From contig NZ_CP016761.1 of assembly GCF_001642935.1 (NCBI RefSeq), forward strand, positions 1,426,001-1,490,000: DNA of 64,000 bases, read 5' to 3'. Position numbers and translations under genes: made by a program. Shown here piece after piece: positions 3,389 through 60,394 of this stretch (the stretch's first letter is position 1; every line of letters starts with the position of its first letter). Below the pieces are notes generated by a model. The model was not told where the DNA came from. It saw only the letters and a program-made list of their open reading frames with translations, and did no database searches. This DNA comes from Fictibacillus arsenicus. Its GTDB lineage: Bacteria > Bacillota > Bacilli > Bacillales > Fictibacillaceae.

Positions 3389-3412
3389 GGTGTTAAATCA
3401 ATATCGTCATTT

Positions 3413-3504
3413 CCGCTAGGGGTGCTTATGTTTTTAAGCTGAGAGAAGGTGATAGCCTTCGACCCTTTGAACCTGATCCGGTTAATACTGGCGTAGGGAA
3501 GCGG
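3413..3504 (+). ncRNA. TPP riboswitch (THI element)
   Basis: The aptamer has the standard conserved blocks: AGGGGTGC, CTGAGA with GAAGG, ACCCTTTGAACCTGATC and the closing GCGTAGGGAAGCGG. P1 is CCGCT (3413-3417) with AGCGG (3500-3504). Binding of thiamine pyrophosphate should stabilise P1 and favour the downstream terminator. The four genes after it are all for thiamine salvage, which agrees. Confidence 0.97.
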
Positions 3505-3534
3505 CGTGGTCCATTACAATCTACAATCGTAATA

Positions 3535-19486: not shown

Positions 19487-19504
19487 TCTCAAAAACAACC
19501 AGAA

Positions 19505-19735
19505 ACATCGATGAGGATTAGTAGATTGATCTTGTCTTTTATAGAGAGGGGGCCACCTGCTGAAAGGTTCCTGCTGACAGCCAATCGAACCTGCCTAGGA
19601 GTTCTGATTCCGTTACTAGTGGAAGATATCAGCGGTTCAAGACCGTTATCATGAAAGAGTGTAAAGCTATGCTTTGAATTAGGGTGGTACCGCCATGCAA
19701 ATGGTCCCTAATATTAAGCATAGCTTTTTTTATTT
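19505..19735 (+). ncRNA. T-box riboswitch, proline specific
   Basis: Stem I begins GATGAGGATTAGTAGAT with the conserved AGTA, then AGAGAG. The specifier region reads GAA-CCT-GCCTAGGAG, putting the proline codon CCT at 19590-19592, matching the downstream enzyme. The T-box sequence AGGGTGGTACCGC is at 19681-19693. Uncharged tRNA-Pro should stabilise the antiterminator and let transcription enter proS. An open frame inside the leader is not a gene. Confidence 0.95.
19663..19730 (+). terminator. T-box leader terminator
   Basis: AAAGCTATGCTT (19663-19674) pairs with AAGCATAGCTTT (19716-19727), with a further ATTAGGG/CCCTAAT inner stem, followed by a T run. The T-box motif lies inside, so antiterminator and terminator are exclusive. 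Confidence 0.9.
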
Positions 19736-48297: not shown

Positions 48298-48345
48298 AAC
48301 TGGCTAAAAGGACATGAAAACTCCCTTTTGGTCAGTTTTTTTTGT
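48298..48345 (+). terminator. Terminator of the nuclease gene
   Basis: AACTGGCTAAAAGG pairs with CCTTTTGGTCAGTT (two non-Watson-Crick places), then T8. Confidence 0.85.
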
Positions 48346-48390
48346 CTATTTATCATATTTTACACGACCATTTGTTATGTAAAAGTACAG

Positions 48391-48539
48391 GTTTGAGCGA
48401 AACGCGGGTAGAGTTGAGCGAAACTAGGAGCAGTTTGAGCGAAAAATAAGATATTTTGAGCGAAGATATACGATTCTGAGCGTAGCGAGCTTTTTTTAAG
48501 CGTACGTGTAATAAATAAAAGAACACGTACCGTAAAATT
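48391..48539. repeat. 21-bp periodic GAGCG array 1 with conserved tail
   Basis: Five TTGAGCG/CTGAGCG units with GAGCG beginning at 48395, 48416, 48437, 48458 and 48478, and a sixth, AAGCG, at 48498: steps of 21, 21, 21, 20, 20. The 10-base spacers differ. The tail 48506-48539 (GTGTAATAAATAAAAGAACA and so on) matches 60361-60394 at nearly every base and contains GTACGTGT/ACACGTAC arms (48502-48530). Lies between the convergent nuclease and SASP genes. Confidence 0.85.
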
Positions 48540-48554
48540 CAAATATCCTAAAAT

Positions 48555-60267: not shown

Positions 60268-60394
60268 CTTTGAGCGAAAAAGAAAGATTTTGAGCGAAAT
60301 TAAAGGTAGTTTGAGCGTAACTCGGCGTTTTTGAGCGTAAATCAATAAGTCTGAGCGAAAGTGTAATAAATATAAGAACACGTACCATGAAATT
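60268..60394. repeat. 20-21-bp periodic GAGCG array 2 with conserved tail
   Basis: GAGCG at 60272, 60292, 60313, 60333 and 60353: steps 20, 21, 20, 20. Units are TTTGAGCGAAA or TTTGAGCGTAA with unrelated 10-base spacers. The tail 60361-60394 repeats that of array 1. No terminator stands between copC and the array, so it would be transcribed as the 3' part of the copC mRNA up to the terminator at 60461. Confidence 0.85.

Follow-up and report, generated by a model that had tools for sequence, protein, structure and literature searches.

An intergenic gap of the Fictibacillus arsenicus chromosome holds six short units placed two helical turns apart and followed by a palindromic 3' module, and elements of this kind recur at 60 dispersed sites of the same genome. 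At about even confidence, we regard them as dispersed miniature DNA elements, each carrying a phased site for a putative cooperative DNA-bending protein. What favours this DNA-level reading is that the strict helical spacing is retained across different cores, that the cores are conserved, that the main types show no RNA fold and that many elements lie between terminators. Direct calculation from the sequences shows the spacing, the typical count of six units, the 3' module, its restriction to one genus in the sample and the dispersal over 60 sites; it likewise shows the stronger conservation of cores than of spacers, the helical oscillation in A/T content, the frequent inter-terminator position and the orientation with respect to replication.

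The element lies in the window (the whole stretch of 64,000 nucleotides that was analysed) and is co-oriented with the upstream gene and with replication. The features of the window that concern it are the following:

48391-48536, plus strand: whole element, six-unit array and 3' module, delimited by BLAST matches to other copies
48298-48344, plus strand: terminator-like hairpin with its T-run, belonging to the nuclease gene upstream and located 5' of the element (sequence reading)
48395-48399, plus strand: unit 1, core GAGCG, with TTT before and AAA after it (sequence reading)
48416-48420, plus strand: unit 2, core GAGCG (sequence reading)
48437-48441, plus strand: unit 3, core GAGCG (sequence reading)
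48458-48462, plus strand: unit 4, core GAGCG (sequence reading)
48478-48482, plus strand: unit 5, core GAGCG, with CT before the core in place of TT (sequence reading)
48498-48502, plus strand: unit 6, degenerate core AAGCG (sequence reading)
48503-48536, plus strand: 3' module; its inverted repeat, TACGTGT / ACACGTA, encloses an A/T-rich loop of 13 bp, and the module closes with ACCGTAAA
48503-48509 and 48523-48529, plus strand: the two arms of that inverted repeat, TACGTGT and ACACGTA
about 60268-60391, plus strand: second, decayed copy with five GAGCG units and a module with 3 mismatches

All six units reported by the first-pass annotation are in place, and the core starts (48395, 48416, 48437, 48458, 48478 and 48498) give steps of 21, 21, 21, 20 and 20 bp. 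The same annotation let the feature end with the array at 48502, which has to be corrected: the palindromic module runs on from there, and BLAST alignments with copies in the genus mostly stop near 48535-48540, having started near 48389-48394 or within the array. Neither this module nor the usual number of six, the other core types or the 60 dispersed sites had been noticed. Single TTGAGCG motifs are hardly enriched in the window (13 against 8.8 expected, a count that 7 of 100 shuffles reach), and the signal is therefore the spacing.

Regular spacing, first remarked at this one locus, is a property of the whole 4.06-Mb genome. A search for two TTGAGCG motifs separated by 2-32 bases returns 98 neighbour pairs. 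In 97 of them the step is 20 or 21 bp, a whole number of helical turns, and in the remaining pair it is 33 bp; a recount on sampled stretches of the genome gives 66 steps of 20 bp, 31 of 21 bp and none of any other length from 9 to 39 bp. When a chain detector is run upstream of each module, six units are counted in 82 of 114 elements from three genomes and in 32 of the 36 GAGCG elements of F. arsenicus itself. An element is about 147 bp long, and its conserved block of about 12 bp returns every 20-21 bp. CRISPR repeats measure about 23-47 bp and are separated by spacers of similar length. The block and the step found here are too short for such an array, and the early dismissal of a CRISPR, on the ground of unit and spacer length, is upheld.

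The repeated core varies in type among elements. In particular, GAGCG (T1), GGGYG (T2), GCGTG (T3) and GGTG (T4) cores are distinguished, with TTTT-NNGYG-RAAC as the consensus unit across types, and the step is 20 or 21 bp in T1 and mostly 21 bp in T2 and T3. T4 and one CTATGAGCAAA type precede the identical module in other species. The units of one element are mostly of a single type, and the unit adjacent to the module can deviate; in two F. arsenicus elements GAGCG alternates with GGGCG-like cores as 42-bp dimers, which are also found in genome G011. At one locus (L250), the units upstream of the module read GTGGATAA at steps of about 20-21 bp, and we take them to resemble DnaA boxes. The spacers had been described as sharing no sequence. 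It is correct that nothing in them can be aligned, but they are not free, as T-runs precede and A-runs follow most cores.

The shared 3' end of the arrays is GAACGTGTAAYAAATATAAGAACACGTACCGTAAA, an inverted repeat around an A/T-rich loop of about 13 bp. Its final 15 bases occur, with at most one mismatch, at 60 sites in the F. arsenicus genome, and the 60 elements discussed below were selected in this way; at least two further T1 arrays lie outside this set (window position 60270 and genome position 1138653). The exact module pattern is present in 16 of 18 Fictibacillus genomes. In an order-wide draw of 397 genomes it is found in 12, all of them Fictibacillus, and in none of the other 385, which confines the module to one of the 135 genera sampled. 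The phased units themselves are more widespread. The scan of relatives that the first-pass annotation had proposed detects three TTGAGCG motifs at 20-21 bp steps in 18 of the 397 genomes and 11 of the 135 genera, with Fictibacillus counted, and a control triple at 25-26 bp in none of the 397. Since the reversed motif GCGAGTT at 20-21 bp likewise occurs in several genera, TTGAGCG is not special outside Fictibacillus; the common feature is the 20-21 bp geometry.

The arrays detected in other genera of the Bacillales have 3-49 units, some of them truncated by the edge of the locus and some consisting of identical repeats. In Terrilactibacillus laevilacticus (L126), six identical 20-bp GAGCG units precede a perfect inverted repeat of 18 bp whose loop has 3 bases, so that six units and a hairpin occur together beyond Fictibacillus; an array in Piscibacillus has six units whose spacers differ. 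Lysinibacillus contaminans (L143) carries about 49 near-identical 21-bp units with a GAGCG core, and these lie within 1191 bases that are open in one frame on the opposite strand. The reversed-pattern search also led to a second array family in genomes G013 and G016 (L052-L067). Its units are 21 bp long and have cores of the GAAATTT and GCGAGTTTT types together with ATAATCC; several copies end in a hairpin, GAGTCGA..TCGAC, and GGGGTAT/ATACCCC repeats lie on the outside. The architecture of this family is like that of the Fictibacillus element, and its letters are unrelated.

The variable unit number and the identical repeats in other genera, together with the 42-bp dimers in some Fictibacillus elements, are what would be expected of an ordinary tandem repeat (a minisatellite) that arises by slippage and has no function. 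As an account of the F. arsenicus element, this is hardly credible. The similarity between neighbouring T1 spacers (0.551 at lag 1) equals that between spacers of separate elements (0.551), T2 neighbours are likewise no closer, and there are mostly six units, after which the fixed 3' module follows. For T1 and T2 elements slippage is thus largely refuted; it may account for part of the long arrays in other genera. A phage or plasmid origin was also considered and is rejected, because BLAST of the element against phage and plasmid collections gives no match and the module pattern has 0 matches in viral contigs. Triple TTGAGCG motifs do occur in 21 viral contigs, in 17 of them inside frames open for at least 600 bases, and among the matches listed for genomes outside the Bacillales such triples lie in long and short open frames, mixed.

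No named element corresponding to these arrays is found in Rfam, in line with the first-pass annotation, which knew of none, and no description was recognised in the titles and opening lines of abstracts of the open-licence literature. Within the window, the Rfam 15 covariance models yield, at the gathering score, a T-box leader and a TPP riboswitch (at 19499-19712 and 3408-3516, in that order) and no match at the element. A second suggestion made at the outset was that the RNA would present regularly spaced loops. When 50 arrays of F. arsenicus are folded and compared with dinucleotide shuffles, the mean z is +0.37 for 34 T1 arrays, +0.25 for 13 T2 arrays and -1.74 for three T3 arrays; T1 and T2 arrays are thus slightly less foldable than shuffles and lack the stable fold of a structured RNA, only the three T3 arrays folding better, and the suggestion fails for the main types. 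An avoidance of folding, the purine-rich plus strand of T1 spacers and the frequent position downstream of a sense frame would, on the other hand, suit an RNA-level element of another kind, namely a repeat RNA without structure or a Rho-loading site in antisense, which would be C-rich and have six CGCTC steps on the minus strand. Rho-loading sites are C-rich and unstructured RNA. We consider this very improbable, as nothing obvious would make a flexible RNA keep 20-21 nt steps across core types and genera, and many elements have terminator-like hairpins on both sides.

At the DNA level, the A/T content of six-unit arrays oscillates with the helical period. Its power exceeds that of shuffles 7.2-fold in T1 (period 10) and 8.7-fold in T2 (period 10.5), and the power at 10-10.5 bp is greater than that at 20-21 bp. 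Most of the oscillation remains after the inner spacers are shuffled (1.74 of 1.95 in T1, 2.17 of 2.18 in T2); it stems mostly from the TTTT-core-AAA blocks, so that curvature is not independent evidence for the phased site and a separate role of the inner spacer in curvature is rejected. A wedge model with assumed angles predicts a ratio of end-to-end distance to contour of 0.840 for T1 arrays, compared with 0.960 for shuffled sequence and 0.919 for upstream flanks; with the same angles, the predicted ratio for T2 arrays is 0.901 compared with 0.876 for upstream flanks, that is, no extra curvature. In other genera, clear helical oscillation (power of at least 1.1) is seen in 9 of 18 arrays, and the other 9 have at most 0.82. 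Of the two possibilities raised by the first-pass annotation, placement of the units on one face of the DNA is thus the better reading, given the 20-21 bp step over cores and genera, the empty 25-26 bp control and the helical oscillation. PMC4060949 credits Bolshoy and coworkers with a report of bent DNA in intergenic regions, putative terminators among them.

When elements are mapped relative to gene ends, as had also been proposed, the open frame upstream proves to be co-directional with the element in 45 of 60 cases. By simple ORF calls, 23 elements lie between convergent genes, 22 in tandem, eight in tandem against the genes and seven between divergent genes. Among 50 elements with at least five units, a sense terminator-like hairpin stands within 110 bp upstream in 29 and an antisense one downstream in 29 (7 and 11 of 50 in the opposite senses; 50 of 250 in shuffled upstream sequence). 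These flanking hairpins place many elements outside both adjacent transcription units. Moreover, 48 of the 60 elements are oriented with replication if the contig start is taken as the origin and the terminus is set at 1.9-2.03 Mb, and 49 if the terminus is set at 2.2 Mb; apart from a single weak exception (L301), the sign change in the GC skew of sampled stretches falls in the interval 2.18-2.27 Mb. The bias persists where the upstream frame is opposed (12 of 15).

The combination of a bendable, phased array with positions at gene ends recalls the gyrase sites of BIMEs, and such an array might be wrapped by DNA gyrase where positive supercoils accumulate. DNA gyrase is universal. The module, however, is found in only one of 135 genera. 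According to PMC6379681, the Escherichia coli gyrase motif has a phased 10-bp variation in G/C, and its sites are enriched past highly transcribed operons and in BIME-2; the helical-period composition over more than 100 bp and the location downstream of genes make it, by analogy, the closest functional likeness that we found in print. In Fictibacillus the 10-bp composition phase, one trait of that motif, is present, A/T oscillating at 10-10.5 bp across about 125 bp of the array. Many elements lie past terminators and downstream of co-directional frames, and they thin out with distance from the contig ends, taken as the origin (14, 17, 15, 10 and 4 elements per successive fifth). In the gyrase motif as given in PMC6379681, however, the periodic parts flank a central cut site, whereas here six equal steps of a 5-bp core have no special centre, the core is kept almost letter by letter and a palindrome stands at one end. 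We therefore judge a gyrase site to be distinctly unlikely.

Comparison of orthologous sites separates the cores from their surroundings. On the basis of the flanks, the 60 F. arsenicus elements were compared with 39 elements of genome G009 and 15 of genome G014, which gave 35 pairs at 28 F. arsenicus sites; the G009 and G014 elements were drawn from intact or near-intact module sites, which biases module conservation upward, and G014 was covered in part. In the 20 pairs that are T1 with six units on both sides, 29 of 600 core positions differ, compared with 312 of 1559 spacer positions with gaps counted (Fisher p 4e-21); the flanks differ at 1320 of 9518 positions with gaps not counted (701 of 4789 upstream, 619 of 4729 downstream). 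The advantage of the cores is strongest in the eight pairs with the most altered spacers (13 of 240 in cores versus 229 of 637 in spacers, p 4e-23) and modest in the 12 with similar spacers (16 of 360 versus 83 of 922, p 0.005).

Core types can also change at a site. Automatic typing assigns unlike types to 8 of the 35 pairs, and upon inspection five pairs at 4 of the 28 sites are clear: in one pair GAGCG in F. arsenicus faces GCGTG, in three GGGYG faces GAGCG and in one GGGYG faces GCGTG. The remaining three comprise a single-unit F. arsenicus array, which is undecidable, a mixed partner and a partner that is really GAGCG. In both GCGTG partners the last unit is still GAGCG, and the unit adjacent to the module is often unchanged. 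Replacement by other copies does occur, to judge from the similarities, in at least one F. arsenicus array (o_20), which is 0.88 similar to another copy in its own genome, a real paralogue, and 0.71 to its orthologue. As a general cause of spacer turnover it is rejected, with donors sought among the sampled arrays: in the eight changed-spacer pairs, the partner's best other match among these arrays is 0.61-0.73. The F. arsenicus arrays of these pairs have best other matches of 0.67-0.90, which include a G014 orthologue (for o_51), a G014 array with a common upstream flank (for o_54) and the paralogue of o_20. For most changed pairs, the simplest reading would be that spacers turn over in place while cores are kept.

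The gap that harbours the element of the window was surveyed in 16 genomes, with G009 read separately and G017 left out. G000 has the element and twelve genomes lack it; G006 retains no more than a tail-like remnant, in G014 a different repeat is followed by a module tail, and G016 has a shortened module with different upstream sequence. The orthologue in G009 has six units (one with a GAGCA core), altered spacers and a module kept with changes. In the orthologous gap between the nuclease and SASP genes, another dispersed repeat with GGCTGTTTTC-like ends and inner GACTCCTGCGGGA ... GCGAGCA is found in G014, G012 (part only), G002 and G008, which marks the gap as an insertion hot spot.

Dispersal and direction bear on whether the elements move. 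Twelve F. arsenicus copies form a subfamily that is 79-86% identical to a reference copy; three of the 11 matches are confined to the element within 3 bp and one within 7 bp, and other copies start late or run up to about 80 bp past it. The dispersed unit is therefore probably the array with its module, accompanied in some copies by adjoining repeat sequence. Together with the replication-linked direction, this subfamily suggests mobility, and the orientation of 48 in 60 elements fits a mechanism of mobility equally. A purely selfish miniature element, whose array and palindrome would bind a copying enzyme, perhaps on single-stranded lagging-strand DNA, and which would serve no host function, could explain these observations, including the 12 of 15 elements aligned with replication against an opposed upstream frame and the orthologous gap, which in other species is occupied by a different repeat or carries no insert. 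It is nevertheless rather unlikely, as cores are more intact than spacers at orthologous sites, which neutral decay after insertion would not lead one to expect. Furthermore, no target-site duplication or terminal inverted repeat is evident in the elements tested, namely the 44 with six units: the best candidate duplication is present in 6 of 44 versus 1.3 expected with many offsets scanned, which is unconvincing, and when the last 14 bases are reverse-complemented and compared with the region of the 5' end, the mean best match is 7.23 of 14 positions, versus 7.68 in shuffled sequence. A MITE is rejected on the same two grounds.

A REP/RAYT pair was likewise considered. One conserved gene with a Y1_Tnp domain is present in each of the 18 genomes, with extra Y1 matches in G003 and G009, and the module (AACACGTACCG, one mismatch allowed) is absent from the 11 loci around Y1_Tnp matches that were scanned, which also speaks against a selfish element copied by this enzyme. 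The gene adjoins a different palindrome, GGGGNCNGTCCCC, which lies 5' of it in five of five loci and 3' in four of five (truncated in G000), and in REPs the palindrome is the repeat itself, whereas it makes up 27 bp of the 147-bp element here; a REP/RAYT origin is therefore rejected. The conserved RAYT-like protein of 186 amino acids (G000:C1:3685349-3685681; found in all 18 genomes and read in five, L383-L387) is likely a domesticated RAYT with its own REP.

Several known repeat systems share part of this architecture. Plasmid iterons are direct repeats about two turns apart beside A/T-rich DNA, some of them with GAG cores; the whole iteron is conserved and located at a replication origin. 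The elements described here, in contrast, occupy 60 chromosomal sites and conserve the core alone. The BOX elements of Streptococcus pneumoniae are the subject of PMC3049150. Such elements are built of boxA, boxB and boxC modules, with a boxB of about 45 bp in variable number. They are likewise modular dispersed repeats, in which an inner module is repeated and an end module is conserved; by description they are set apart from the units here, which are 20-21 bp, mostly six in number and conserved in the core alone. REP and BIME sequences are similar in being short intergenic repeats dispersed in many copies, with a palindromic part and a possible role in chromosome architecture, and according to PMC3733652 REPs are palindromes of 20-40 bp with a GTAG or CGTC tag at one end; the main part of the present element differs, being six direct units in helical phase. 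The bcr1 repeats of the Bacillus cereus group, a Bacillus relative, are comparable in length (167 and 147 bp in Table 3 of PMC2267715) and are also intergenic and dispersed. The same source lists them as a family of stem-loops and predicts a conserved structure for them, from which T1 and T2 arrays, which lack a fold signal, are set apart by description.

The preferred reading, a phased protein site on a dispersed DNA element, can be put as a mechanism. Six sites, two helical turns apart on the same face, would be bound cooperatively by one putative DNA-binding protein that recognises the TTTT-NNGYG-RAAC units. The flanking T- and A-runs would bend the DNA, and about 125 bp might thereby be held as one nucleoprotein patch in the intergenic gap. 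The palindrome could be the site of a second protein or an end used in copying, and the switching of core types with the geometry kept would fit one loosely specific protein or several paralogues. Mobility and architecture can both be true, in that a miniature mobile element may bring an architectural patch with it. More tentatively, and as a possibility that we rate well below the phased site itself, the Fictibacillus elements may represent a single branch within a larger class of helix-phased patches in the Bacillales, which would lie between transcription units and be bound by a co-evolving putative DNA-bending protein; the bases before GYG (GA, GG, GC or xG) would be switchable in five or six units at one site, with spacing, unit number, place and end module kept, and selection would act on geometry over letters.

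Bacteria commonly carry dispersed intergenic repeats, most of which have no known use. In the present case the geometry, two helical turns per step, mostly six steps and one face, is kept so strictly, and can be separated so well from the letters, that a nucleoprotein structure is indicated. The sixty natural copies, which comprise several core types, and the orthologous sites at which the type has switched amount to a ready-made experiment for finding the protein and for asking whether architectural patches are maintained between the transcription units of bacteria.
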